From Isosphaeraceae bacterium (GTDB taxonomy: Bacteria; Planctomycetota; Planctomycetia; Isosphaerales; Isosphaeraceae): a stretch of 64,000 nucleotides of DNA. Shown piece after piece: positions 14,087-32,808 of the stretch. The stretch is taken from contig BPJS01000001.1 of assembly GCA_026004735.1 (NCBI GenBank), positions 3,793,641 to 3,857,640 of the forward strand, written 5' to 3'. The notes beneath the pieces are model-generated. The model ran no database searches. It was given only the letters and a program-made list of their open reading frames with translations, and was not told where the DNA came from. The first letter of the stretch is position 1. Every line of letters starts with the position of its first letter. A program made the position numbers and the translations under genes.

Positions 14087-14594
14087 GGGAGTTCCTCGGA
14101 ACCCGTGCGCGAACAGGCTGCGCTAGGGGATTGAGTTGGGCGGTTGACCGAAGCGCTGACTGGACCGCTGAAAGCAGGAGGGAAAGACCGACGGCGCGTT
14201 CCTGACGCCGGAAGAGTCGAGGATCAAGGACGCGGGCTGATCTGCGTGACCGGCTCGTTCCACGCGCGTCGCTCTCGCTGGAAGAGTCGAGAAGACCGGA
14301 TGCGGGGGCTGGCGCCTGGAACGATGACGTGGAGAGAGGCAATCGCGCATCAGGAAACGGTTCGGGCGGAGCAACGGCAGGCGGAGGAGTACGGCGCTGT
14401 CAGGGGAGGACGCTGTCACGGAGAGGAGAAACCGGCGTAATAGACATTGGCTCTGGGCTGACAATGTTGAAAAAACGGCTCGTTGACGGCTGATGTGGGC
14501 GGCCCTAAGCTTCGAGGGGGGGGAAGTGGGCGGAGGGCCGGCACCCTGCGGGGGGGGCTGGATCAGCGCGTGCTCGGATTGCCGAGGGTCGGCG

Positions 14595-16238
14595 ATGAGG
14601 AAGCCAGCAGCGTATGGCCTGGTGGTTTCGGGATTGATTGTCGTGGCGTCGGCCTGGGGTCAAGAGCCGGCCGAGTCGCCGGGCGGGTCGGTTCTGCCGT
14701 CGTTTGCGGCGGGCGAGGTTCCCTCGCGGCTGGAGTATATCGATGAACTGCTGAGGGCGGCCTGGGAGGAGGCGGGGATCAAGCCGTCGCCGATCTGCAC
14801 TGACGCGGAGTTTTTGCGTCGGGCATATCTGGATCTTCTGGGCCGAATCCCCAACGTGGAGGAGGCCCGGGCGTTTTTGGGCGGGGGGAAAGAGCGCGAT
14901 CCGGGACGGCGGGCGAAGCTGATCGAGAATCTGCTGGCGCATCCGGATTATGCCAAGAATATGGCGACAATTTTCGCCAACACGCTGGTGGGGCGTCGGC
15001 CGCGGGGCGATCAAGTGGATCGGGAAGCGCTGGTCGGTTGGCTGCGGACGCAGTTTGCGACCAACCGGTCGTGGAAGGACGTGGCCTGGGATCTGCTAAC
15101 GGCTACCGGGTCGAACCGGGAGCAGGGCGCGGTCAACTTTGCGCTGGCGCACTTCGCGGACGAGAAAGTCAACCTAACGGCGGCAACAACGCGGGTTTTT
15201 CTCGGGCTCCAGATCCAGTGCACTCAGTGCCATGACCATCCGTCGAACGACTGGAAGCAGCAGGATTTTTGGGGGATCAACGCGTTTTTCCGGGGAACGC
15301 GGTCGCGGCCGGTCGAGGTGATCGACGCCAGCGGGGCGGTGGTTCGTAATGGGACAGAGGTCTACGACGAGCCGACCGATGCCTGGGCGCGGTTTGAGAA
15401 GCGGAATGCGGTGGTTGGTGTGGTGCCGCCGACGTATCTCGACGGGAGGCGGATCGACCCGGGTCCGGAGGTGGTGCGGCGGGTCGAGCTGGCCAAGCTG
15501 ATTACCGAGCCGACGAATGATCAGTTTGCCAAGGCGTTTGTCAACCGGATCTGGGGCCACCTGCTGGGGCGGGGGATCGTGCACCCGGTGGATGATTTTG
15601 GGGATCACAACCCGCCGAGTCATCCGGAACTGATCGAGCGGCTGGCGGTGGATTTTCGGGCCTCGGGCTACGACGTCAAGGCGCTGATTCGGTGGATCAC
15701 GGCGAGCGAGGCGTACCACGTTTCGAGCCGGATGACGAAATCGAACGAGAAGGACGACGTCCTGTTCAGCCACTATCCGCTCAAGCCGATGAGCCCCGAA
15801 CAGCTCTTTGACTCGCTGATCACGGCGACGGCGGCGCATCGGACGGCTGGGGGCGATTCGGAGCGGCGGCGGAGCGAGTGGTTACGGCAGTTTGTGGTGA
15901 CGTTCGACAATGATGAAGCAGGCGAGACGTCGAGCTTTCAGGGGACGATTCCGCAAGCGTTGATGATGATGAACGGCGAGTTGATGGCCAAGGCCGTCAG
16001 TGGAGAGCCGGGGAGCTTTCTTGCGCACGTGCTCGATGAGTCGCGGCTTCAGCGGCGGGTGCCGCCGGTGCGGTATGCGGTGGAGATGTTGTATCTGGCG
16101 TCGCTGTCGCGGTTGCCGACGCCGCAGGAGCTGCGGTGGGCCTCGAATCTGTTTGCCACGAATCCGGATACGCTTGCAGTGCTCCAGGATTTGTTCTGGG
16201 CGCTGTTGAATTCGAATGAGTTTGTGCTCAACAAGTGA
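14595..16238 (+). CDS. DUF1549/DUF1553 secreted protein
   Basis: This 547-residue secreted protein has a signal peptide (RKPAAYGLVVSGLIVVASAW, residues 2-21) and then DUF1549 (AEFLRRAYLDLLGRIPNVEE, and the conserved CTQCHDHPSNDW) joined to DUF1553 (AKAFVNRIWGHLLGRGIVHP, HPELIERLAVDF). The CxxCH could bind haem or metal; this is known of the family only as a conserved motif. I prefer the ATG at 14595 because it begins the signal peptide and has an upstream GAGGG; a longer frame from 14493 adds a non-signal leader. It is a compact version lacking the cytochrome and concanavalin modules of the protein at 1-1908. A DUF1501 gene follows 61 bp later. Confidence 0.94.
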   Translation: MRKPAAYGLVVSGLIVVASAWGQEPAESPGGSVLPSFAAGEVPSRLEYIDELLRAAWEEAGIKPSPICTDAEFLRRAYLDLLGRIPNVEEARAFLGGGKERDPGRRAKLIENLLAHPDYAKNMATIFANTLVGRRPRGDQVDREALVGWLRTQFATNRSWKDVAWDLLTATGSNREQGAVNFALAHFADEKVNLTAATTRVFLGLQIQCTQCHDHPSNDWKQQDFWGINAFFRGTRSRPVEVIDASGAVVRNGTEVYDEPTDAWARFEKRNAVVGVVPPTYLDGRRIDPGPEVVRRVELAKLITEPTNDQFAKAFVNRIWGHLLGRGIVHPVDDFGDHNPPSHPELIERLAVDFRASGYDVKALIRWITASEAYHVSSRMTKSNEKDDVLFSHYPLKPMSPEQLFDSLITATAAHRTAGGDSERRRSEWLRQFVVTFDNDEAGETSSFQGTIPQALMMMNGELMAKAVSGEPGSFLAHVLDESRLQRRVPPVRYAVEMLYLASLSRLPTPQELRWASNLFATNPDTLAVLQDLFWALLNSNEFVLNK

Positions 16239-16299
16239 GCCAGGTCTGAGGGCCGTGCGGTCTGTGTGATCAGGTGTCGGACCAAGAATGAGGCGAGCC

Positions 16300-17586
16300 A
16301 TGAACCAGCGATGGCGGCAGCCAGACGGAATGAGCCGACGGCACTTTCTGAGCCATCTGGCGGCGGCGACCATGGCCGGACCGGCCGCGCAGTTGGTGGG
16401 GGCCTTGGAGGCGCAAGCGGCGGCAGGAATCCGTCCGCCCAAGCGCTGCATCATGCTGTGGATGGGTGGGGGGCCCAGCCACCTCGATACCTGGGATCTG
16501 AAGCCCGAGAGTGAGAAGAACGGCGGTGAGTTTCGGCCGATTGAAACGAGTGTGCCGGGGATTCAGATTTGCGAGCATCTGCCGACGGTGGCGCGGCAGA
16601 TGAAGCATTTGAGCATTGTGCGGTCGCTCAATTCGCGGGAAGGGAATCATGACCGGGGCACCTACGTGATGCATACCGGCTACATGCCGACGCCGACGAT
16701 TGTGCATCCGAGTTTTGGTTCGATCTGTTCGTACGAGCTAGGGTACAAGGCGGGCGAGGACTTTCCGCTGCCGCATTTCATTTCGATCAACGGACCGGGC
16801 GAGGGAGCCGGTTTCCTGGGGATGGCCCATGCGCCGTTTTATGTGCAGAATCCGACCGCGCCGATTGCCAACCTGCGTCCGCCGGGTGGGATTGAGGAGT
16901 TCAGGCTGGGGCGTCGGCTGGGGATGCTGGGCGTGCTGGAGGACAACTTCCGGTTGCAGAATCGCGGTCAGGCGGCGGCGGACCACAAGGCGGTCTATCA
17001 GAAGACCGTCAAGATGATGAACTCGCAGTATACCCAGGCGTTCAACCTGGAGAGCGAGCCGCCCGCGGTGCGCGATGCGTATGGGCGTCATTCGTTTGGG
17101 CAGGGCTGCCTGATGGCGCGGAAGCTGGTGGAGATGGGAGTGACCTTTGTGGAGGTTCACCTGAACGGGTGGGACAACCACAACGATATTTTCGACACGT
17201 TGCGAACCGGCAACCTGCCGCAACTGGACCAAGGTTTGGGCACGCTGATCGAAGACCTGGCCGTCCGCGGGTTGCTGGATACGACGCTGGTTGTCTGGAT
17301 GGGCGAATTTGGACGCACGCCGCGGATCAACCAGAATGCCGGGCGAGACCACTGGCCGAATGGGTGGTCGGTGGTGCTGGGCGGCGCGGGTTTGAAGGGC
17401 GGCCGGGTGGTGGGGGCGACGGATCGGGACGGCGTCGAGATCGTGGATCGTGAACTGCACGTCCCAGACCTGATCGCCACGATGGCACACGCGATGGGGA
17501 TTGACCTTTCGACCCAGTACACGACGCCCAATGGACGGCCGTTCAAGATTGTGGATGGGGGCCAACCCATCGCGGAGTTGATCTGA
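16300..17586 (+). CDS. DUF1501 domain protein, Tat-exported
   Basis: This 428-residue protein is a DUF1501 family member with a twin-arginine signal (SRRHFLSHLAAA, residues 12-23). Landmarks are CIMLWMGGGPSHLDTWDLKP, HLNGWDNHND, MGEFGRTPRIN and GRDHWPNGW. ATG 16300 has a GAGG ribosome site 6 nt upstream and is preferred; ATG 16288 would add four residues. It pairs with the DUF1549/DUF1553 gene upstream, the second such pair in the window. Its stop lies only 17 bp from the stop of the convergent giant gene. Function unknown. Confidence 0.94.
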   Translation: MNQRWRQPDGMSRRHFLSHLAAATMAGPAAQLVGALEAQAAAGIRPPKRCIMLWMGGGPSHLDTWDLKPESEKNGGEFRPIETSVPGIQICEHLPTVARQMKHLSIVRSLNSREGNHDRGTYVMHTGYMPTPTIVHPSFGSICSYELGYKAGEDFPLPHFISINGPGEGAGFLGMAHAPFYVQNPTAPIANLRPPGGIEEFRLGRRLGMLGVLEDNFRLQNRGQAAADHKAVYQKTVKMMNSQYTQAFNLESEPPAVRDAYGRHSFGQGCLMARKLVEMGVTFVEVHLNGWDNHNDIFDTLRTGNLPQLDQGLGTLIEDLAVRGLLDTTLVVWMGEFGRTPRINQNAGRDHWPNGWSVVLGGAGLKGGRVVGATDRDGVEIVDRELHVPDLIATMAHAMGIDLSTQYTTPNGRPFKIVDGGQPIAELI

Positions 17587-17603: not shown

Positions 17604-20600
17604 TTAGGCGGGCCAGACGAGCAGGGTCAGGGCCGTCAAGGTTGCGATGACCGCCGCCGAGCGAGCCAATCTCCCGGTCCGGCTTGCCGCGAGGGCGATG
17701 GCGACGAGCAGGCTGGCGAAACTGGATCGGGGGGCGTCCCAGGTTGGTTGAGGGCGGGTTGCCGACCGGGCCGCCAGAATCAGGCGTGGCGGTTCGGCTG
17801 CGCTAATTCCTCGGAACCAACTCGGGGTGCCGAAGAGCGGAAGGCGGGGTGGGAGGGCGTCTGACTCTGAGGGTGTCTGGGCGGTCCCCGGGGGAGGCAG
17901 ACTCAAGCCGGCATCCCGGAGGGCTGACTGAAGACGCGCGCGGGCCGCGTCGGCCAAGGCGAGGCGGGTGGTGGTGGGGACGGGAGTCGAGGCGGCGGCA
18001 GCGTCGGCAAGCTCGCCGCGGAGGTGGTCCAGTTGCTCGATCGCCGCGGCGAGGTCTGCCAGGGCATCCGGGTCGGAACGGTCGAGAGTGGGCAGACGTG
18101 CCTCCAGGGTGCGAGCTTCTAGCTCAATCGTCTCGACGAGGAGGGTTGCCCGCTCGGCAGGGGCGAGGCCGTCGGCTTCGGTCGGAACGGTGCGTGAGGC
18201 GATCGGGTCGCGCAGCTCGACGTGGAGCGGGACGCCGGGCTGGTCGGGGACGGGCAGCTCGATGCCGATTGATCCGGGGGTCGCCGGAGTGACCCAGTAG
18301 ACGGCGACGACGCGGGTCGAGCCGGGTGGCACGAGCAGCCTGCCAGAGCGGGTGCGGTAGCAGGGGAGGAACCGGAGGCCGTCATGTGCGCCGAGGATCT
18401 GGGCCGAGGCGGGAAAGCGGAAGTTCAGGGAGTGGCCGGGTGGGGAGGCGAGGTGGCAGAGCAAGCGACCGGCAATGCGGCCGTCAAGGCCCGCCTGAAG
18501 CTGGATCAGGGCGTGGGTGATGTGGGGGACGTCCGGCTCAGGATCTGGGCGGCCGGGGCGGAGCCGAAGCGACCAATCCGAGCGCAGGATGCGGTAGACG
18601 CGACGGGTTGGGCGTTCCTCGAGGTTCAGTTCGGAAGAGGGGAATCGGGCGCGTTCGACTTCGCGGACTCCGGCCGAGCCTTCGGCGGCATACCGCCGGC
18701 CGGAGGCGTCGAACCAGGCCAGATACGATTCGACGCGGCCGAGGCCGAGGGGAACCAGGTTGGGAAATTCGACGGGTCCGGGCTGGGTTGGGGTGACGGA
18801 GCGGACGATGACGCGGGGTTCGTCCCAGGTGGGTGTTTCGAAGCGGACTTCGAGGCGGGTGGTGTCGCCCATGGGGAGACGGCGAATCTCGCTGGGGGAA
18901 GGCTCGACCTGGACGTCGAGTTGGGCCGCGAAGGCGGCGGGTAGGTCGAGGCGGAGCTCGCGATAAGGACCGCCGCGGACGCGGTAGCGGGCCGAGGCGC
19001 GCCATTCGATGGAATCGGGCTGAAACTCGAGGTGGCTGAGGACGCGGACATCGGCGGCGGGGCCCTCGAGCCGGTAGCGGAGGTGGGCATCGGCGGCGTT
19101 TGGCTCGACCCGAAAGGCGGCCCGGACCGGAACTGGACCGGACGAACCGCTAGCCGGGATCGAGCGGGACCAGCCGGAGGGTTCCTCTAGGTCGAGGGCC
19201 ACTTCGGGGGCGGCGGCCAGCCTCAATTCGGTCGGCTCGACGATTTCCGCCTGCCAGCGGGGGATCGACAGGACCAGCTCGCGCGACAGCCCCTCGAGCG
19301 GAGCTGCAGGCCCGTCGGAGTCGAGCCAGCCGAGGATCGCAAGGCGCTGAGGCGGCCCGCGCTGGCTGTCCCAGTGAAGGACAAGTTGATGGGAGTCGCC
19401 GGAAAGGTGCCAGCTCAGAACGCCCTCGCCGCTCACGTCGATGAGCCGGAGCCTGTGCGGTAATTGGACGGAGAGCGCGGGGAGCGAGGGGTCCGCGGCG
19501 ACGATCTCGACCTCAGCCTGGACGCGGACCCTCTGGCCGTCGATGGTGCAATCCAGACGCGGCCGCAGGTGCGTGGGGGAAACGGAGGTGCGGACCAGGA
19601 GGCTCAAGGGGTTTGAGTCGCGGGCATCCCAGGCGGCCGTGGGCCGCTGGTCTGCGGGGATCGGTTCACCCCAGGCCGCCAGAAACTCACTGATCGGTAG
19701 CCGAGCGTCGCCACCGATCAAAGGATCAGACGGCTGGAGCGACCAGCCGGCGCGGGGTCGAACAGCCACGGCGTGGGTGCGGATTTCGGCGTCGCCGGAG
19801 ATGACCGGCGGCGGCAGCGAGCGCGGGGATCGCAGGCCCTGAGCGGCCGGGCGCCAGGCCAGGAGTCGGGTCTCTTCGCCCGGGGCCAGCGCGGGCATCA
19901 ACGCGATGGACCAGCGGTCCGGGTTCGAAGGGGGGGAATCCGGGTGGACGCGGTCGCGCCGACCCTCGATCGGGATGGGGAGGATGCGCGCGTCGCGGGT
20001 TGGCAATTGGAGCGATAAGGTGTCCAGAGGCTCGGTTCCGGCGTTCTGGAGGCGGAGTTCGAGCAGATCGCCGAGGGGGCCGGCCTCCCAGAGGGTCTGG
20101 AGATCAAGAACCGGGCGCGAAGCCGGCGGATCGGTGGCGAGGTCGAGATCGAGGCGGTCGACGGGTCCGATCGGCTGGGGAGCGGGACCGACTGAGTCGA
20201 CAGTTGATTCGCGGATCGCGAGCGCAACGGGGACGATCCGCGGGTGTACCGAGGTTTGGGCCAAGCCGGTTGCCTCGACCCGGAGTTCGTGCGAGCCTGG
20301 CCCACGGATGCGGACCCGACCGACGCCGAGGTCAGGGTCGAGCGTGATCGGGGCCTCCTGGTCGTCGACCCAGACGGTCACGCCCAGCCAGCCATCGAGG
20401 GGGATTGGCCACAGGCTGCCCTCGGGATCGGCGCCGACAACTTGGTATGTGGATCGAAGGAGAAGCTGGTCGTCGGACTGTTGGAGGGAGTGGCGCGCCT
20501 CGCGAGCACCGAAGCCGTCGGACCGCTCGCGCTGCTGACGGGCGCGTTGTTGCTCGGTCTCGCGGACGAGCCGCTCGAGCCGTTCCAGATCGGCGAGCCG

Positions 20601-23600
20601 GACGACAGCTCGGGCCGGAGGGGCGGCAGCGTCCTCGGCGGTGTCGAAGGGCAGAAGAATCAGGATCGGCTCGGGCGCGGATTCGTCCGGCACGCGCTGA
20701 CCGGCCGTTGCCGAGGCGACCAGAGCGTGGAAGGCGTAAGCGAGCAGCAGTGTACTGGCGCCGCGGAGGGTTGCCGTCGAGGCGGCGGCGTTCGGAGGCA
20801 GGTTGACTGGCTCGACCGGCCGGAGCCAGCGTGCGGCCGCGATCACAACCCCGGCAACGACCGATGGGGCGATCCAGGGAGCGAGCTGCGGGAGTACCAG
20901 AATGAGGCCGGCCAGCAGGGCATAGCCGAGCACCAGCAAGCGGGACGCCAGAGTGGGCTGGCGACGGCTCGGCCAACCTAGCGCAAGCACGAGGGCGGCC
21001 ACGAACCATGCCTCGGTTCTCCAGCCCGTCTGCGTGCGTGACTCGAGGCGGACCTGGGCGCCATCGGGGATGAGGTGCGGCGGGAGCACGCGATCGGACG
21101 CTGGCGGTGGCGGGTTGGTCCGCCAACGCCAGAGGGTCAAAAAGCGATGGGAGGGATCCTGACCGTCGCGGGCGGCTTCGAGGATGCGGGCCGGCCGGTC
21201 GAGCCGGGCGGCGGCGCTTGGTGTGGTCAAGAGCAGCGCTGCTTCGAGGGGAACGACGGTTAGCCCCAGTGCCTCCAAGGCCCGGGAGACCGAGGCGTCG
21301 GAGTTCTGAGGAAACGGCGATTCAGGGCGAGCGGCGGCGGTGGCCAGGGCCTCCGAGTCGATGATCCAGGTGATGCCGCGGCGGGCCTGGCTCTCGAGCC
21401 AGGCGATCAAGGTGGAGCCGGGAGCCGGCAGCTCCAGGTCGGCTTGGAACGTGCTGCTCGGGCGGATCGTACGGCCGGGGGCTGGAGTGGACGATCGGGC
21501 GAGCGCGGCCCCAGGGCTGACCGCGATGCGGTCGCTGGCGCGGACGATGGTGTTCAGGACGGGCAGACTCAGGCGGGGAAACCGCGGCGCAGCGGGATCG
21601 AGGCCGGGGGGTTCCTGGTAGACCAGCTCGAGGCGGTGAGCGGATCGCCCCGGCCCGATTCCGCGGGGAATGGCCAGCCAGCCGTCGGACGTGGTGGGGT
21701 CGAAGGCAACGGCGTCGAGCCAGGCGGCGACTGGCCGTGCCCCGTCGGGCAGGCGTGCTTTGAGGTCCGGATAGGACGGACACGTGAACTCGGCGACGAG
21801 GCGGCAGGTTCGGCCGGATTCGGTGGGCGGCCCAGGAGTCCATTCGGCTAGGGCGATCAGTCCTGGGGTTGAGAGTTGCTCGCGTTGCGTGATCCGCAAA
21901 CGGGGTTCGGGGCCGCGGCCCGAGACGCGGTAGGCGATGCGGTTGGAGCGGAGCGAGCGGGGGTCGAGGTCGAGGGCGGGGATGGTTTGGTGGGCCGAGT
22001 CGAATTCAAGCCGAGGGTCGAGGCGGCTCAGGCCGACGCCGCTCAGTTCGAAGCCGAATTGTTCGCTGGCGGCGACTAAGAGGCGTTGGTCGGGGTGCTG
22101 GTCGCCGTTGAGGGCGAAGGTTGGCAGGGGGCCGCCGTCAGGACCAAGCTGAGAGTGGGCGTGGAGCAGGATTCGGCCGGACTCCCAGCGTCGGGCAGGG
22201 AGTTTGAGGGTCTGGGCCAGGCGTGGAGCCGAGCCGGGTTCGGCGGGGGGAACGGTGTGAACGGCCAGGACGGGCAGGGGCTGGTCCACGCCTTCACGAA
22301 CCAAGGCCCAGGACCAGGCGACGTCGGCGGAGTGCTCGATGACGAGGCGATCCAGCTCCGACGGAGGCAGATCAATGGAGAGGTAGGCGTCGAGGTCGAA
22401 GGAGTCGCCGGCTGGGCAGACAAGCAGGCGGCTGATCGCCGTGGGGCGGAGCCGTGTGGGGGTCAAGTCGAAGTCGAGCCTGGCGTGACGGTCGCGCCAC
22501 CGCCAGGCGAAGCGGGGAGTGTCGTCGAAGCCATCGGTTCGGGTTCGCAGGGGGTCGAGCCATTCGACGCTCTGAGCTGAGAGCGGGCGGATGCTGATTC
22601 GGTCGTCGGCGATCAGGCTCCAGAGTTCGTCGCTGGTATAGCCGGGGCGCGGCTGGGGGCGTGGAACGGCCAGGCGCGATGTCGAGATCAAGGAACGGAA
22701 GGCCCGAAAGCGAACGATCACGGGGGTGGCGGGATCGCGGGCTTGGGGGGGGATGACGGTGGCGACGTGGCCGACGTCCGGCTCAAAGGCGGAGGACCAG
22801 AGGGTGGGTTCGTCGAGACTGACGATCTGGACTGAGTCCCAGGTCCACTCGGTCGGCAGGGCAATGGAGAGGGTCGGCGGTCGGGGACCGGGAAAGTTCC
22901 AGGTGGCTTCGGCGTCGAGGTATGCCCGATCGGACTCGAGCCGCAAGGCGGCGCGGAGGTCGACCCGGGGCGACAGGTCTGGCTCGCCCAGCTCGAGTTC
23001 GGCTGGTGGCCCATCGGCGGTGGCGTCGAAGGCCAGCCAGGAGCCGCCTCGGGCCAGCGAGTCGGGCGGGACCGGGACGCGTTCGGCGGCAATCCGGCGG
23101 GTGTTGAGCACAATCCACTCAGGCCCAAGGTGAACCAGGGTGCGCTCGCCGAGGAGCAGCGAGCCGGGCAGTCGGACCCGCGGGATTTTCCAGCGGCCGC
23201 TGGTCGGGGGGCGGACGCGGCCCTCGAGATGCAGCGTTTGTCGGGGCGCAGCGCCTTCGGCCAGCCGGATGAGCACCTGGGTTTCGGGACCGGTACCGGG
23301 CAGCACCTCAAAGCCATCGACGCCCGGACCCAGGATCGTGGTGGCCTCGAGGGGAGACTCCCAGACGGTGATGAGCGAGCGGGGCGGCGGGGTCGGCAAG
23401 CGGAGGTCCCACTCGGCCTCGAAGCGAGGGCCGTCGGCGGTGATCTCGAACTGGTGGCGGGCGGACAGCCAGGGCGGGTCGGGCGGCGGCGCGATTCCGT
23501 CCCGGCGGCGGATCGTCGCCACGATCCGGCCAGAGGCGCCGTCGATTCGAAGGAGGGTTCGACCGGGCTCGGCCAAGAGGTGGCGGATCCGGTTCGGCGT

Positions 23601-24179
23601 GGAAGTGTCGAAGTCGAGACGGTCGGGCAGGTCGATCGTCAACGCCGAGAGCGCGCAGTCGGGGAGTTCGAGGCTGAGATCGGCCGAGTCGGCATCGAGC
23701 CTGACGGGCAACTGCCAGGGGATGACGATCGTGGAGACGCCGGGCTGGGTGATCCAGGCGATCAGGCGGCCATCGGGGCGGGTGCGGAGGTCGGGCAAGC
23801 CAGCGCTGGGGGTGATCGGGAGGTTCCAGGGGACTAGCGGGACGGCGGCGGGAGGATCTGGACCGATTTCGACGGTCAGGGTGCTGCGGCCCTCGAGGAC
23901 GTCGCCATCCATCCAGCGTGCCTGGTGCTCGGCCCGGATCAGACGAGGCGGATGAGGCATGGGGTCGTTGAGGCTGCGACGGACGGTGTCGAGATAGCGT
24001 TCCAGGTCGGCCAGGTTCAGGCTGCGGACGGGAGTATCGGCACCGAAGAGGCGAACGATTTCCTGGGAAGGGATGCGAAGGCGGCGAATGGGGGGCAACT
24101 CGCCGGGGTGGGAGGCGGGGTTGACGGCAGCGAACCAGGCCGCGGTCAGGGCCAGGCGGAGAAGCGCCGGGCGGCTCAT
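17604..24179 (-). CDS. giant secreted/membrane protein, probably a fusion of two ~1.1-kaa units
   Basis: I do not recognise a named family. The 2191-residue product has a signal peptide (ALLRLALTAAWFAAV, residues 5-19), a short helix with LADLERYLDTV (~57), a long beta-rich region, hydrophobic helices at about 1056-1146, then a second LADLERLERLV helix (~1192), another long beta-rich region and terminal hydrophobic helices (VIATLTALTLLVWPA). Corresponding segments recur in register in both halves and in the upstream 1099-residue protein, for example SIALPTEWTWDSVQIVS (~438) and SVQLPHRLRLIDVSG (~1569). Its length is almost exactly twice that of the upstream protein. ATG 24179 overlaps the upstream stop (ATGA), so the pair is translationally coupled; a frame to 24503 is excluded for this reason. 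It is probably an envelope protein with large extracytoplasmic domains; catalytic motifs are not evident. Confidence 0.88.
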   Translation of the reverse strand: MSRPALLRLALTAAWFAAVNPASHPGELPPIRRLRIPSQEIVRLFGADTPVRSLNLADLERYLDTVRRSLNDPMPHPPRLIRAEHQARWMDGDVLEGRSTLTVEIGPDPPAAVPLVPWNLPITPSAGLPDLRTRPDGRLIAWITQPGVSTIVIPWQLPVRLDADSADLSLELPDCALSALTIDLPDRLDFDTSTPNRIRHLLAEPGRTLLRIDGASGRIVATIRRRDGIAPPPDPPWLSARHQFEITADGPRFEAEWDLRLPTPPPRSLITVWESPLEATTILGPGVDGFEVLPGTGPETQVLIRLAEGAAPRQTLHLEGRVRPPTSGRWKIPRVRLPGSLLLGERTLVHLGPEWIVLNTRRIAAERVPVPPDSLARGGSWLAFDATADGPPAELELGEPDLSPRVDLRAALRLESDRAYLDAEATWNFPGPRPPTLSIALPTEWTWDSVQIVSLDEPTLWSSAFEPDVGHVATVIPPQARDPATPVIVRFRAFRSLISTSRLAVPRPQPRPGYTSDELWSLIADDRISIRPLSAQSVEWLDPLRTRTDGFDDTPRFAWRWRDRHARLDFDLTPTRLRPTAISRLLVCPAGDSFDLDAYLSIDLPPSELDRLVIEHSADVAWSWALVREGVDQPLPVLAVHTVPPAEPGSAPRLAQTLKLPARRWESGRILLHAHSQLGPDGGPLPTFALNGDQHPDQRLLVAASEQFGFELSGVGLSRLDPRLEFDSAHQTIPALDLDPRSLRSNRIAYRVSGRGPEPRLRITQREQLSTPGLIALAEWTPGPPTESGRTCRLVAEFTCPSYPDLKARLPDGARPVAAWLDAVAFDPTTSDGWLAIPRGIGPGRSAHRLELVYQEPPGLDPAAPRFPRLSLPVLNTIVRASDRIAVSPGAALARSSTPAPGRTIRPSSTFQADLELPAPGSTLIAWLESQARRGITWIIDSEALATAAARPESPFPQNSDASVSRALEALGLTVVPLEAALLLTTPSAAARLDRPARILEAARDGQDPSHRFLTLWRWRTNPPPPASDRVLPPHLIPDGAQVRLESRTQTGWRTEAWFVAALVLALGWPSRRQPTLASRLLVLGYALLAGLILVLPQLAPWIAPSVVAGVVIAAARWLRPVEPVNLPPNAAASTATLRGASTLLLAYAFHALVASATAGQRVPDESAPEPILILLPFDTAEDAAAPPARAVVRLADLERLERLVRETEQQRARQQRERSDGFGAREARHSLQQSDDQLLLRSTYQVVGADPEGSLWPIPLDGWLGVTVWVDDQEAPITLDPDLGVGRVRIRGPGSHELRVEATGLAQTSVHPRIVPVALAIRESTVDSVGPAPQPIGPVDRLDLDLATDPPASRPVLDLQTLWEAGPLGDLLELRLQNAGTEPLDTLSLQLPTRDARILPIPIEGRRDRVHPDSPPSNPDRWSIALMPALAPGEETRLLAWRPAAQGLRSPRSLPPPVISGDAEIRTHAVAVRPRAGWSLQPSDPLIGGDARLPISEFLAAWGEPIPADQRPTAAWDARDSNPLSLLVRTSVSPTHLRPRLDCTIDGQRVRVQAEVEIVAADPSLPALSVQLPHRLRLIDVSGEGVLSWHLSGDSHQLVLHWDSQRGPPQRLAILGWLDSDGPAAPLEGLSRELVLSIPRWQAEIVEPTELRLAAAPEVALDLEEPSGWSRSIPASGSSGPVPVRAAFRVEPNAADAHLRYRLEGPAADVRVLSHLEFQPDSIEWRASARYRVRGGPYRELRLDLPAAFAAQLDVQVEPSPSEIRRLPMGDTTRLEVRFETPTWDEPRVIVRSVTPTQPGPVEFPNLVPLGLGRVESYLAWFDASGRRYAAEGSAGVREVERARFPSSELNLEERPTRRVYRILRSDWSLRLRPGRPDPEPDVPHITHALIQLQAGLDGRIAGRLLCHLASPPGHSLNFRFPASAQILGAHDGLRFLPCYRTRSGRLLVPPGSTRVVAVYWVTPATPGSIGIELPVPDQPGVPLHVELRDPIASRTVPTEADGLAPAERATLLVETIELEARTLEARLPTLDRSDPDALADLAAAIEQLDHLRGELADAAAASTPVPTTTRLALADAARARLQSALRDAGLSLPPPGTAQTPSESDALPPRLPLFGTPSWFRGISAAEPPRLILAARSATRPQPTWDAPRSSFASLLVAIALAASRTGRLARSAAVIATLTALTLLVWPA

Positions 24180-27100
24180 GATGCGTAGTCCCCGGGATCG
24201 TCGGGACGGACCGCCGAACCGCGGGATGCGGTGGACGGGGCGCGGCGACGCACGATCGTCGAATCCTCGGGGCCGTGGACAACTTCGACGGGGCGTGCTC
24301 CGTCGAGATGGCTGGGTCGCAGGCTTGAAGCTGGCCCGGATGTTTGCAACTTGCGCCGCCAGAGGGTTGCGACGAGGATTCCCAGGCCGACGCCGGCGAG
24401 GCCCGATTGGAGCACCTGTCCGACCAGGATTCCGAAGCGCGAGGTGGCCAGGACCCCGGCCGCGAGCCAGAAGGCGGCAATCATTCCGGGCCAGCGTTGC
24501 CATCCGGCGAGGGTCAGCAGGGTGACGGCCAGGGCCGCCAGACTGCTGCTGGCCAGCAGATAGGGGCGGGAGACGATCCAGAGGCTCACCTGGTTGGGGT
24601 TCCCCGAGCGGCCGAAGAGGTAGTTATGGGTGGACGCGGGAGAGGAGCGGGGCGCGTCGGAGAGCAACCCGAGGGCGGACCGCTGGGGCTGACGGCGCCA
24701 GAAGTAGCCGCTCCAGGCCCATTCATTCAGGTCGTCCCAGCCGGTCGGTGCTCCGAGCAGGGCGTAGCTGTGCGGGAGGCGCACTTCCCAGAGCAGGGCG
24801 CCGACGGCCGCCTGGTCCGAAAAGCGAGGACCCCACCAGCGTCCCCGTTCGGAAGCTCGAGGGATCACGTAGCTGAGTTCGACCAGAGACTCGCCCTGGT
24901 TGGGCGGCAGGCGTAGGCGGAATGTCCCGGGCGGCTCAAGGGCCTCGATCTCCTCGATGGATTGGGCGCCGACCCGCGCGCCGATCCACTCGGAGCCGTT
25001 TGGCAGTTCGACGACGAGCTGACCCTCGTGGCGCGCGACCTGAACGCGACACTCGACGCTGACCGAGGCATCGGGCATCCAGGTGGTCGCAACGACAGCC
25101 CGGCGAATGAACAGCGGCGGCAGAGTTGCGCGACGCGGCAGGCGGAGCCGGGCGTGCAGACGGGGGGGATCCTGGTGATCGCGGCGGGTCCAAGCCGAGC
25201 TGGGGTCGCCCGGGTCGGAGGGCAGCCAGGCGTCTCCCTCGGGTTCTAGCTCAAGGCCGGCCTCGGCTGAGAGGGAGACGACGCGGCTGGCGGCGGGAAT
25301 GCCGACTAGCCCGAATTCGGGGATTTCGATTCGGCGCTGGGAGCCGGGCGCGATGGGTTCTGCGAAGGCGACTCGACCGCGCAGGCGAAGGCTGCTGCGG
25401 ACGTCGATCGGTCGAGCCAGCTCCAGGAGGACGCGCTGAGGAGATTCGGGGGCCGCGGACAGAAAGCGCCGGCGTCGGACGTCGACGCCCAGGAGCTGCC
25501 AGTCAGGCTCGATACCGGCGGGGAGCTGAAGTTCGAGGGAATCCAACTGGCCGTGTTCGAGGAGAAGCTCGATCTCCTGGCGGAGGTCGATCCCGAGGCG
25601 GTCCAGGGTTAGTTCGACTCGATGGCGGGTCGCGACCTGGCGTTGCAGGGATTCGACCTCAAGGACCAGGCGCTGATCGGCGTTCTGCCAGGGGATCCAG
25701 GCGATGCGCGGGGATCGCAGGTCGGGCCGCTCGGCAGGCCAGGTCCAGGCTGAGGGGGCAGGGCCGAACGACCGCGGCGATCCGTCCGGATGGAGGGCCT
25801 GGAGGGCAATGTCGCGTGTATCGACCAGTGCAAGCAGGCCGGACGTCCCGTCGACGTCGCGGGGAGCAGGCAGCGCGACGGCCACGGGGGCCCCCGGAGT
25901 GATCGGGAGGGAGCCGATCAGCCGAATCGAGAATTGGCCAGAGGCGGAGGCCGAGTCGGCAAGCCTGAGAACGAGCTGCCGCGAGGAGTCGGAGGTCGGC
26001 GAGCGAGCCGTCGCGGCGCTCGAAGCGATCGACTCGGGGGGACCGACGTCGAGAATCTGGAAGTCGTTGGGAACGTCGAAGGCGACCCGTGCCAGCCGGC
26101 CACGGGGGCCGCGAAAGTCGAACCAGGACTCAATGCGCAGACTTTGTCCGTCGTCGGACCAGAGGGTTGAGCGGGTGCGGCAGGAGAGCCAGGGTCGAGA
26201 GGGATCGGTGCGCAGTTCGAGCTGAAACGGTTGAGTGAGCAGCCGGTAGGCGAGGATGACCGACGGTCGGGCGCGGAGGGTTGGGGAGAGTTCGGTACGG
26301 GGGTCGATCGGGCGGAGGCCCGGTCCGGTGCGTCCGGTGACGACCAGATCGTCGCTGGCGGAGATGGCCAGCAGCCCGGTTTGCACGGGGGTATCGACGA
26401 TCGGGATTCCGCGGAAGAGCCAGGTGGCCGACTCGTCGCGGGGGAGCGGCCGGCGGGCGCGGATGGTTAGCTCCAGGGTTTTCTGCGCGTTCAGGGGTCG
26501 CGGGATCCAGACACGGCCGGCGACGGTGGGATCGGCCCTGAGCCGTCGGGGGTCGAACGGCTGGGCGTCGATGAGGTATTCGACGTCCTCGAAGCTCGGG
26601 TCGAGATCGAGACCGAGTTCGCTGGCCGACCCTCGCTCGGCGCGCAGGGTGGCGGTTGACTGGATGCGTGCCGAGCCGGACTCGATGGTGATGGCCAGTT
26701 CGACCTGGGCCGAGAGGACCGGCCGGGGAGGTTCGGCCTCGCTGGTCTGGGTCGACCAATCCAGTTCCAGGCGAGGCCGCGGGGGGATCAGGCCGGCGAT
26801 GGTGGCCTGACCGGCCTGGTCGCGGAGGATCGTGAGCGATTCGCCCGTGCGGAGAGCAGCCTGGAGCAGGCCGGGAGGAGCGGTCAGTTCGAGACGGGTC
26901 ATCGGAGCCTCGGCCAGGGGTAGGTCGAGGCGCCGTTGCTGGCCGAGGACCCGGACCGGGACCGACAGGCGGACGCGGAGCACCTGCCGACCGGAGCCCT
27001 GAAGTTCGGCCGTCCAGCCGGAACCGGGGACAACCGAGACGGGAATCGGCTGGCCGTCGCGCGTGACTTCGGAGAGAACCAGGCCGTCGAGCCGCAAGGG

Positions 27101-27475
27101 GGCGAGAACGGCCTGATCGCCTTCGACGAGGAACTCGAAGCGGAGGTCGAGATCGGCCTGGTCGTCGCCGAGCCGCCCGGAAACGAGCACGGAGCGGAGT
27201 GAAGCGGTGGGAGTCTGGGGAGCCGACTGGCTGGCCGAGCGGTCAAGCAGGGCCTGGTAACGGGAGCCGTCGAGGAGGACGAAGTCGGGGTTGGCGAAGC
27301 GGGAGAGCAGGGCGTTGAGGTCGGCGGGCATGCCGAGAATGACAAAGAGCGGGTCGGACGAGGGAGCGGGCGACGCGGCCGGCTGGCTCACCGTGGGCCG
27401 CTCGGTCTGTTGCGCCCCGACCGGGATGACGGTCAACGCGAACAAGGACATTGCCGCGAGGATGGGCCGGCACAA
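24176..27475 (-). CDS. large secreted/membrane protein, paralogue of each half of the downstream giant
   Basis: I do not recognise a named family. This 1099-residue protein has a signal peptide (ILAAMSLFALTVIPVGA, 5-21), a short helical start (ADLNALLSRF and SRYQALLDR, 51-79), a beta-rich ectodomain of nearly 900 residues, and three hydrophobic helices near the C-terminus (LAALAVTLLTLAG, MIAAFWLAAGVLA, GLAGVGLGILVATLW) followed by a basic, disordered ~60-residue tail. The segment AFDVPNDFQILDVGPPES (~462) matches equivalent positions in both halves of the downstream giant. The start codon is TTG without a clear ribosome site; ATG 27451 is possible but would leave a signal peptide without positive charge. 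It is the first gene of a two-gene operon, with a palindrome 120 nt upstream. Confidence 0.88.
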   Translation of the reverse strand: MCRPILAAMSLFALTVIPVGAQQTERPTVSQPAASPAPSSDPLFVILGMPADLNALLSRFANPDFVLLDGSRYQALLDRSASQSAPQTPTASLRSVLVSGRLGDDQADLDLRFEFLVEGDQAVLAPLRLDGLVLSEVTRDGQPIPVSVVPGSGWTAELQGSGRQVLRVRLSVPVRVLGQQRRLDLPLAEAPMTRLELTAPPGLLQAALRTGESLTILRDQAGQATIAGLIPPRPRLELDWSTQTSEAEPPRPVLSAQVELAITIESGSARIQSTATLRAERGSASELGLDLDPSFEDVEYLIDAQPFDPRRLRADPTVAGRVWIPRPLNAQKTLELTIRARRPLPRDESATWLFRGIPIVDTPVQTGLLAISASDDLVVTGRTGPGLRPIDPRTELSPTLRARPSVILAYRLLTQPFQLELRTDPSRPWLSCRTRSTLWSDDGQSLRIESWFDFRGPRGRLARVAFDVPNDFQILDVGPPESIASSAATARSPTSDSSRQLVLRLADSASASGQFSIRLIGSLPITPGAPVAVALPAPRDVDGTSGLLALVDTRDIALQALHPDGSPRSFGPAPSAWTWPAERPDLRSPRIAWIPWQNADQRLVLEVESLQRQVATRHRVELTLDRLGIDLRQEIELLLEHGQLDSLELQLPAGIEPDWQLLGVDVRRRRFLSAAPESPQRVLLELARPIDVRSSLRLRGRVAFAEPIAPGSQRRIEIPEFGLVGIPAASRVVSLSAEAGLELEPEGDAWLPSDPGDPSSAWTRRDHQDPPRLHARLRLPRRATLPPLFIRRAVVATTWMPDASVSVECRVQVARHEGQLVVELPNGSEWIGARVGAQSIEEIEALEPPGTFRLRLPPNQGESLVELSYVIPRASERGRWWGPRFSDQAAVGALLWEVRLPHSYALLGAPTGWDDLNEWAWSGYFWRRQPQRSALGLLSDAPRSSPASTHNYLFGRSGNPNQVSLWIVSRPYLLASSSLAALAVTLLTLAGWQRWPGMIAAFWLAAGVLATSRFGILVGQVLQSGLAGVGLGILVATLWRRKLQTSGPASSLRPSHLDGARPVEVVHGPEDSTIVRRRAPSTASRGSAVRPDDPGDYAS

Positions 27476-27648: not shown

Positions 27649-28455
<807 letters not shown>

Positions 28456-30597: not shown

Positions 30598-32808
30598 TTA
30601 GTGCATTTTGCGACGGCGATCCGTAGGAGCGTGTTCGGCGACCACGGCGTAGATCCGAAGGTGGCGGTCGGCGTGGAGCAGGCGGAACTGGTCGGGGCGG
30701 CTGTCGGCCCAGGTCCGCTCGATGGGGAAAAAGTCGTTGTCGTAGGGGTTGAGACGGCCGCGGAGCGGGTCGGCGCGGGCGACGACGAGGAGCCGGATGG
30801 CGTGACGGCGGAGGTTGGCAAGCCAGGCGTCGGGATCGGGCCAGAGCCGCTCCCAGCTCGGGCGAGGGTCAGGCCAGGTGGGCGGGAGGCCGCGGCGGAT
30901 GGCCTCGCGATGGTAGTCGTGGGGCAGCCAGTCGTCGTGGCCGTCGATGTTGACGTACCGGACGTCGTTGCGCATCCGACCGGCGAACAGGTAATACGGG
31001 ATGTCGGTCCCGGCGTAGGCGACCCGAGTGCCCTGGACGGGTGAGGCGGTTTCGAGCACGGCCCAGCCGGGCAGGTAGTCGGGGAAATCGGCCGGATAGA
31101 TTCGCCGCAGGGCCTGTGAGGTCAGTTCGTGCCAGCCCACGCCGCCGAGGAGGACCAAAAGCGTCGCGCCGAGGGCCGTCAGGCGGTGCCATCGCGAGGG
31201 TTGGCCCCAGAGCCAGATGGCGGCCAGCCCAAGCCCGACGGCGAGCCAGGCGATGCCGTACCCGCTCCAGCGGATAGGGCCGGGGAGGGAGGCATGGGGT
31301 GTCTCGATCAGGGGGAGGATGGCCGTCAGAGGCTGCGGGATTCGATCGGTCAGCGACCACAAGGCGCGGCTGCCGTAAGTTGTGGTGGGCCAGCCTGGCC
31401 CGGTGAGCAGATGGACGACGACCAGACTGGCGGCTGCCACGACCCGCCAGGGACGGTCTAGAAGACGGGCCAGGGCGATCGCCGCTAGACCGAAGCTATG
31501 CAGCATGAACCGCTGCTGGGTGCGGTAGGGGATCAGGATCCAATAAAGCATGAGGTTGAGCAGGGCGAGGGCCGAGAGTGTCCAGACCCAGCGGTCGGTG
31601 GGCTGGCGAATACGGCCGAGGCGCCAAAACCCCGCCAGAGCCAGACACCAGAGCGGGATCAGCCGGACGTCGAGGACGGCGGACAGGATGTCAACGAAGG
31701 CTGCCAGATCGGTCACGGGCAGGTAGTAGGGGCTGTTGGCCATCGCGGCAGGCTGGTACCAGCCGGTCAGCCAGGTTCGGCCCGCGAATTCGAGGTGAGC
31801 CGGATAGAGCGGGTTGCCGGTTCGGAGCAGGTTGGATGCGAACCAGTAGGAGACCGGGCAGAGCGTGGCCGCCAAGAAGAGGAGGGCCGAGCCGAGGCCA
31901 TGGTGGGGGATGAGAGAGAGAACGACGAGCGCGGCCAGTGGGCCGACGAAGATTGTCCCGGTGGGCTTGCAGCCCCAGGCCAGGCCAAGGGCCAGGCCGG
32001 CCAGAGCGAGCGTGCCCAGGTTGCGTCGGCCCCGGTCGAACCGGATGAGACCGTAGACGCCCGCCAGGTAGGCGGCCGTGAAGAGGGTGTCGACGTTGGC
32101 TTCGAACGAGAAGAGCAACAGCGGCAGAATGGTGGTGAATGCGCAGGCGGCGACGATGGCCGCCGAGCGGGTTGCGCCCAGATCGCGCGCCATGCGAACG
32201 ACCAGCCAGCCCGCGGCCAGCAGCGCCGGTGCTTGGCCGACCCGAGCAAGGCGGTCGCCTCCCCAACCGATCATCAACCAGGCAAACCAGAGATCGCCGT
32301 TGGCGGGAAAGTAGGGTGCGGCGGACTCTCCGAACGGGACCGGGACAAGCCCCAGCGCGTGGGCTTTCCACCAGCGGGCTGCGAAATAAAGGTGATAGAT
32401 CGGCCCGTCGCTGACGACCTTGACCGGATAGGCCAACGAGTGCACGCACAGCATCAAGGCCGCGGCGAGCGTGGCTCCCAGGGCGAACCAGGCGGCCAGA
32501 CGCTCGGCCCATCCCTCGACGATGCCAGAGCCGACCGGCGGCGCGTCGTCGGCGTCGTCGGGGCAGCGACCGCGGGCAAGGACTCCGGCGATCAGCAGGC
32601 CCAGAAGGGTCCAGGCCAGCAACGGCCCGCGGCCAAGCAGGCTCAGACTGCCCAATAGCTGCATCCCCAGGACCAGCCAGGTGGCGGCCAGGATCGCGGC
32701 AGCCCAGATGCGACCGGGGCGGTCCCGCGGCGGCTCAAGCCGCGAAGCAGCCAACCAGCCAGCCAGAGCCAAGAGGCCATTGAGCGTGAGGGTCCAAACG
32801 ACGGCCAA
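30598..32808 (-). CDS. polytopic membrane protein, GT-C glycosyltransferase-like
   Basis: This 736-residue protein has about a dozen hydrophobic helices across the first ~560 residues and a soluble C-terminal domain of ~170 residues (AYAGTDIPYYLFAGRMRNDV and onward). The architecture resembles GT-C lipid-linked-sugar transferases (PMT/ArnT group): an acidic first loop, a YHLYFAARWWKAHAL segment and a C-terminal soluble part. I do not see a diagnostic motif, so the assignment is by shape. The start is TTG at 32808 with no clear ribosome site, which is unusual; no in-frame ATG occurs before residue ~49. It ends 47 bp before the anti-sigma-like gene and may be cotranscribed with it. Confidence 0.8.
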   Translation of the reverse strand: MAVVWTLTLNGLLALAGWLAASRLEPPRDRPGRIWAAAILAATWLVLGMQLLGSLSLLGRGPLLAWTLLGLLIAGVLARGRCPDDADDAPPVGSGIVEGWAERLAAWFALGATLAAALMLCVHSLAYPVKVVSDGPIYHLYFAARWWKAHALGLVPVPFGESAAPYFPANGDLWFAWLMIGWGGDRLARVGQAPALLAAGWLVVRMARDLGATRSAAIVAACAFTTILPLLLFSFEANVDTLFTAAYLAGVYGLIRFDRGRRNLGTLALAGLALGLAWGCKPTGTIFVGPLAALVVLSLIPHHGLGSALLFLAATLCPVSYWFASNLLRTGNPLYPAHLEFAGRTWLTGWYQPAAMANSPYYLPVTDLAAFVDILSAVLDVRLIPLWCLALAGFWRLGRIRQPTDRWVWTLSALALLNLMLYWILIPYRTQQRFMLHSFGLAAIALARLLDRPWRVVAAASLVVVHLLTGPGWPTTTYGSRALWSLTDRIPQPLTAILPLIETPHASLPGPIRWSGYGIAWLAVGLGLAAIWLWGQPSRWHRLTALGATLLVLLGGVGWHELTSQALRRIYPADFPDYLPGWAVLETASPVQGTRVAYAGTDIPYYLFAGRMRNDVRYVNIDGHDDWLPHDYHREAIRRGLPPTWPDPRPSWERLWPDPDAWLANLRRHAIRLLVVARADPLRGRLNPYDNDFFPIERTWADSRPDQFRLLHADRHLRIYAVVAEHAPTDRRRKMH

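Follow-up and report, generated by a model that had tools for sequence, protein, structure and literature searches.

The question raised by this locus is what kind of system is encoded by two giant, closely coupled genes on the minus strand of the window (64,000 nucleotides of contig BPJS01000001.1 from an Isosphaeraceae bacterium, assembly GCA_026004735.1), whose products an initial annotation, made from the sequence alone, had described as three copies of one unit of about 1.1 thousand amino acids (1.1 kaa). Gene 1 encodes a protein of 1099 amino acids (aa; P0002) from a TTG start at position 27475, with an ATG eight codons downstream, and gene 2 encodes a protein of 2191 aa (P0001). The stop codon of the first and the start codon of the second overlap in the tetranucleotide ATGA. 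The mechanical open reading frame of P0001 is longer (2299 aa), and the ATGA start was preferred because a signal-peptide-like segment comes next. The reading frames and coordinates of that annotation were correct for both genes, and the overlap on which it based coupled translation is present. Tight coupling of the unit genes is conserved: among the 64 junctions scored in relatives, 15 are ATGA and most of the rest overlap or span only a short distance.

The two genes encode three distantly related homologous units, one in P0002 (unit 1) and two in P0001 (units 2 and 3). The similarity is visible only in profiles, because a direct BLASTP comparison of P0001 with P0002 was not significant (best E 0.11); taken alone, the pairwise comparison would have led to a wrong rejection of the three-unit homology. 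Family profiles were built from relatives in 59 genomes and compared by HHalign. The P0002 family aligns collinearly with residues 1–1160 of P0001 over 924 columns (Prob 99.9, E 2e-33) and with residues 1161–2191 over 802 columns (Prob 99.8, E 2e-29); between the P0001 halves the alignment covers 827 columns (Prob 99.0, E 9e-18). Reversed-profile controls reached a Prob of 2.4 at most. The hidden Markov model (HMM) of the 1.1-kaa family matches the 2.2–2.7-kaa partner twice in distant relatives, each time near full length; in the partner protein of locus L118, the two copies lie at residues 107–1025 and 1247–2119.

The motif sets that had been seen to recur in register were recovered by profile alignment to within 0–3 residues. 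AFDVP... (P0002 residue 465) aligns with P0001 residues 438 (SIALP...) and 1570 (SVQLP...), an exact match to the earlier placement; RVVSL... (P0002 731) aligns with P0001 698 and 1818, previously placed at 699 and 1815, and SRYQALL (P0002 71) with P0001 57 and 1196, previously 56 and 1195. The initial annotation had held that a lack of profile similarity or the presence of unrelated folds would speak against it; significant profile alignments and, in models of units 1 and 2, a shared fold were found, and three copies encoded as one plus two are thus upheld.

Each unit has a signal or membrane segment, after which come about five tandem beta-sandwich domains of about 175 aa and then membrane helices, as structural models of units 1 and 2 indicate. 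The AlphaFold2 model of unit 1 (predicted local distance difference test, pLDDT, 79; predicted TM-score, pTM, 0.39) shows five successive beta-sandwich domains, each opened by a long two-strand hairpin; three membrane helices come next, and the chain ends in a disordered tail. The model of unit 2 (pLDDT 72, pTM 0.34) has the same layout with an additional small alpha/beta domain, and its four membrane helices lead into unit 3. The two modelled units share the five-domain strand pattern and their nearest folds. In a profile comparison of the five segments of unit 1, the repeats b, c, d and e proved homologous to one another (best E 2e-12, null controls), and domain a showed no significant profile similarity to b–e, being too diverged to tell. 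The 1.1-kaa unit of the initial annotation therefore holds as a unit, with the correction that it is itself made of about five repeats of a smaller domain. If the domain limits of unit 3 are carried over from unit 1, its last domain being presumed, the full set would come to about 15 domains on two polypeptides. The description as secreted proteins also needs correction: they are membrane-anchored, probably in the inner membrane and with a periplasmic ectodomain.

Two elements stand apart from the repeats. The extra domain of unit 2 has a helix-strand-helix-helix-strand-strand pattern that was aligned across 25 members; it looks STN-like, but Pfam STN (PF07660) did not confirm this, as four family members that were scanned gave no match up to E 10. 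The disordered tail of unit 1 carries a motif, VGSDDSTAIRxR in relatives, that is near-invariant in unit 1 of the window's class and, by genome-wide pattern search, almost private to the unit 1 gene in most genomes tested. A docking motif common to many proteins was rejected on this ground, and the motif looks like a docking or modification site.

The gene pair is an old and widespread element of Planctomycetota. The unit 1 family profile matches 56 of 149 genomes sampled across the phylum, and the order of the gene pair is conserved at the level of family, class and phylum. Among the relatives that this locus picks out are Singulisphaera, Paludisphaera and Aquisphaera; a contig scan with the narrow alignment returned only Isosphaeraceae-type relatives. 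Trees were computed from an HMM-guided alignment of 802 columns and 80 units. On the FastTree tree of the 80 units, the position labels require 9 changes, versus 38 with shuffled labels, and on a mixture-model tree of 30 rows, very few of them from the window's class, each position forms a single clade with 90–94 support in the SH-like approximate likelihood ratio test (SH-aLRT). The branches are long, and the deep order is uncertain. Two genomes carry the units as three separate tandem genes, of 1129, 1262 and 1148 aa (G117, locus L117, 5331-15887) and of 1211, 1435 and 1489 aa (G069, locus L120, 5886-18250), and these genes group in the clades of units 1, 2 and 3, orthologous by position. 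Because the units form position-specific clades, and the separate genes fall in the same clades, the triplication is older than the divergence of the sampled families. The occurrence of separate genes in these two genomes also indicates that the 2191-aa P0001 arose by fusion of two unit genes, units 2 and 3 being fused in most genomes. Together, the fused and separate forms make a clear natural case of genes that fused once an ancient triplication had taken place.

Several loci depart from this arrangement. A further genome (G076, locus L119, 3-13710) has three separate unit genes in a permuted order, which by tree placement are unit 3-, unit 1- and unit 2-like. Six genomes of one family in the window's class (G037, G042, G046, G050, G052 and G055) have two unit loci each, at separate places; of the second-type loci, those placed on the tree (L093 and L123) group with the type of the wider phylum, and in L087 and L088, from the same family, unit 1 groups with the window's type. 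A fourth unit of 1287 aa, a close copy of unit 2 by tree, lies downstream in locus L167 (1597-16172, G126).

The earlier statement that no named family covers the proteins stands as far as Pfam, NCBIfam and PDB sequences go, none of which matched P0001 or P0002. No Pfam family matches the 34 members of the P0002 family consistently, and the family profiles returned no credible PDB chain; UstYa (E 7.5e-4 in 2 of the 34 members) was judged a chance match and rejected. Folds were compared by Foldseek. Ost1/ribophorin I (PF04597), whose luminal part has a two-domain beta-sandwich fold on a membrane anchor, a layout that the units may share, aligned with both modelled units over about 420 columns: unit 1 superimposes on Ost1 (6c26_1) over 420 columns with a root mean square deviation (rmsd) of 7.5 and a TM-score by target of 0.48, and unit 2 with an rmsd of 8.9 and a TM-score of 0.40; the match to 6ezn_A covers 414 columns with a TM-score by target of 0.42. 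By contrast with Ost1, the units have about five domains each, come in threes, and lack both a sequence match and an oligosaccharyltransferase context. The single N domain of about 200 aa of M1 aminopeptidases and leukotriene A4 hydrolase matches one repeat over 204–228 columns (prob 1.0); the units, however, have no catalytic domain (Pfam Peptidase_M1 gave no match in P0001 or P0002 at E 0.1) and carry the domain in tandem and membrane-anchored. The integrin alpha ectodomain, a long chain of beta-sandwich leg domains, produced the top Foldseek E-values, but the units are bacterial, and the similarity is only local because TM-scores to whole integrins are about 0.1 (0.09–0.14, rmsd mostly over 20), so that a global integrin alpha fold is not indicated. 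Domains of the bacterial adhesins clumping factor A and PitA were also among the matches, and a viral fold library gave weak or local matches only, including giant-virus M1-aminopeptidase-like and inter-alpha-trypsin-inhibitor-like proteins. We treat the likeness to Ost1, integrin alpha and the M1 N domain as a shared fold class and not as membership in any of these families.

A functional link is suggested by the neighbourhood of the units outside the window's class. There, in 11 of 55 unit-bearing genomes, a gene with a PF12034 (YfbK_C) match lies directly upstream on the same strand, 358–1648 bases from the unit match (match to match; rough chance estimate 4e-25). In seven loci (L136, L155, L156, L158, L160, L161 and L162) this VWA gene is itself preceded by an extracytoplasmic function (ECF) sigma factor gene, with Pfam Sigma70_r2/r4 found in all seven. 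The VWA proteins that were checked have one N-terminal membrane helix. Among those scanned, zf-HC2 was found in two, above the Pfam cutoff in L161 and below it in L155; similarity to the L136 anti-sigma segment was seen for the VWA proteins of L155, L156 and L158, and in L160 and L162 the anti-sigma assignment comes from position and the N-terminal helix only. In L136 (6466-18784), the ECF sigma factor is followed by a 1659-aa protein with an anti-sigma-like N-terminus, a membrane helix, an STN-like stretch (E 0.039 only against PF07660) and a VWA/YfbK module, and then by a double-unit giant gene. Sigma and VWA genes before the units represent the typical layout of a sigma/anti-sigma pair with a periplasmic sensor domain. 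As in ECF sigma/zf-HC2 anti-sigma pairs, the seven operons open with a sigma gene and a gene whose N-terminus is usually anti-sigma-like; unlike in such pairs, the protein encoded next carries a large VWA/YfbK module at its end, and the giant units come after it. The YfbK/VWA proteins (PF12034, PF12450) are adjacent partners of the units in the 11 relatives, but neighbours and not kin: two that were tested showed no profile similarity to the units, and the idea that they are extra unit copies was rejected. A literature search, with most subscription papers outside it, returned no paper describing the combination of sigma factor, VWA protein and giant units, or the unit family.

We tentatively favour the view that the locus encodes an ancient, phylum-wide envelope system of three paralogues, a periplasmic sensor/scaffold coupled to ECF signalling, which we hold to be possible at somewhat less than even chance. 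The three units would be anchored in the inner membrane and extend rods of about 15 domains into the periplasm, where they could plausibly form one hetero-assembly serving as scaffold and as sensor of the envelope state; the anti-sigma factor would read this assembly through its periplasmic VWA domain and release the sigma factor. In the window's class, where the sigma pair is unlinked, the conserved DST-IR tail, which would lie in the cytoplasm, may let unit 1 dock another partner there. Several observations weigh against this proposal. The system is not universal, as 93 of the 149 genomes have no detectable copy. Within the window's class, no sigma or VWA gene adjoins the units in loci L061–L096, apart from one unlinked sigma match in L065, and because such neighbours are absent there, the signalling link is an extrapolation. 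The YfbK_C gene of the window's own genome (G000) lies far from the unit locus, as it is unlinked in relatives too. The topology comes from hydropathy and from models of moderate confidence (pTM 0.34–0.39) that do not fix the relative placement of domains, and operon linkage is no demonstration of physical interaction.

A rival account is that the units are purely a structural scaffold or tether, their rods fixing the spacing of the envelope or the shape of the membrane, and that the sigma factor in relatives only switches on their expression under envelope stress, which would make them the output of the regulon and not its sensor. Giant tandem beta-sandwich rods with no recognised catalytic domain, encoded by closely coupled genes, are consistent with this account, as is the position of the units directly behind the sigma and VWA genes in relatives, where regulated targets are often found. 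It leaves unexplained, however, the large periplasmic VWA domain on the anti-sigma-type gene and, in the window's class, the near-invariant motif that unit 1 has in its cytoplasmic tail, and we regard it as rather unlikely. The integrin alpha legs, clumping factor A and PitA among the fold matches could instead point to an integrin- or pilin-like surface protein for adhesion or matrix binding, whose rods pass through or beyond the outer membrane and bind glycans or neighbouring cells. Such adhesion is improbable, given that the helices ending each unit, together with the four between units 2 and 3, would anchor both ends of the rod to one membrane and that family scans revealed no cell-wall or sorting signal.

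The fold likeness to Ost1/ribophorin I, among the best PDB matches of both modelled units, opens two further readings. An accessory factor for the processing or glycosylation of exported proteins, with beta-sandwich domains binding the substrate beside a membrane enzyme, is very improbable: Pfam Ribophorin_I (PF04597) had no match in P0001 or P0002 or in any of 40 related planctomycete genomes, the same fold class returned integrin alpha and M1 aminopeptidases, and no oligosaccharyltransferase-like gene is present among the annotated neighbours. A bolder extension of the sensor proposal, which has little chance of being right, would make the units prokaryotic relatives of the Ost1 luminal fold, in a 15-domain complex of three subunits that acts through the VWA-bearing anti-sigma factor as an undescribed integrin-like envelope sensor of Planctomycetota. 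Non-catalytic subunits of the oligosaccharyltransferase are reported to have no promising prokaryotic homologues by BLASTP or HMM (PMC4973528), and because of this report the resemblance is best taken as a lead for structural testing. Returning to the favoured sensor/scaffold, its interest lies in the unusual envelopes of planctomycetes, which have large periplasmic invaginations and a poorly known protein machinery. The co-encoded giant, membrane-anchored units fall outside the searched Pfam and NCBIfam models, have a testable signalling link in several lineages, and may offer a handle on what organises the planctomycete periplasm. They also provide a case in which a fold apparently common to eukaryotic Ost1 is seen again in bacteria.

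Table 1. Coordinates of the unit genes, their domains and the upstream neighbour in the window.
Feature	Position	Strand	Basis
Gene 1 (P0002), unit 1: N-terminal signal segment, predicted five-domain beta-sandwich ectodomain, three membrane helices, disordered tail	24176..27475	-	
Unit 1 domain a (the repeat that diverges most), residues 88-248	26732..27214	-	AlphaFold2 strand pattern
Unit 1 domain b, residues 246-428	26192..26740	-	Model; HHalign E-values 2e-12 (c), 3e-8 (d), 4e-7 (e)
Unit 1 domain c, residues 424-610, contains AFDVPNDFQILDVGPPES segment	25646..26206	-	Model, profiles, alignment
Unit 1 domain d, residues 607-784, contains RVVSLSAEAGLELE segment	25124..25657	-	Model, profiles, alignment
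Unit 1 domain e, residues 781-962	24590..25135	-	Model, profiles
Unit 1 predicted membrane helices, residues 970-1045 (970-991, 996-1013, 1015-1045)	24341..24568	-	Model, hydropathy
Unit 1 disordered-tail motif GPEDSTIVRRR	24242..24274	-	Conservation, pattern search
ATGA shared by the gene 1 stop codon (TGA) and the gene 2 start codon (ATG)	24176..24179	-	
Gene 2 (P0001), units 2 and 3 fused	17604..24179	-	Profile alignment, model
Unit 2, P0001 residues 1-1160	20700..24179	-	HHalign to unit 1, AlphaFold2 model
Unit 2 domains a-e, residues about 72-229, 230-398, 399-573, 574-768, 769-895	21495..23966	-	Model strands; limits mapped from unit 1
Unit 2 additional alpha/beta domain with an STN-like pattern, residues about 915-995	21195..21437	-	Model
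Unit 2 predicted membrane helices, four, residues 1048-1158	20706..21038	-	Model, low to moderate confidence
Unit 3, P0001 residues 1161-2191	17607..20699	-	HHalign to unit 1
Leu-rich helix LADLERLERLV opening unit 3	20565..20597	-	Aligned with unit 1 residue 71 and P0001 residue 57
Inositol monophosphatase family gene, upstream neighbour	27649..28455	-	Pfam PF00459, E 3e-65

The palindrome upstream of the operon, which the initial annotation had also cited for co-expression, did not survive scrutiny: TCAGCGCTGA is a perfect 10-bp palindrome, a kind of sequence for which chance alone predicts about 60 occurrences in 64 kb, and on that ground it was dropped as a regulatory signal. The inositol monophosphatase gene is a conserved same-strand upstream neighbour of the units in 17 loci of the window's class. 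Further upstream, a 736-aa open reading frame (30598-32808, minus strand) weakly matches the LA_3751/LA_3752 family of putative glycosyltransferases, and this upstream block is conserved in relatives. On the other side, a PSCyt2/PSD1 (DUF1549/DUF1553) and DUF1501 gene pair (14493-17586, plus strand) converges on the 3' end of the giant operon, an arrangement that is kept in 13 Isosphaeraceae-type loci.

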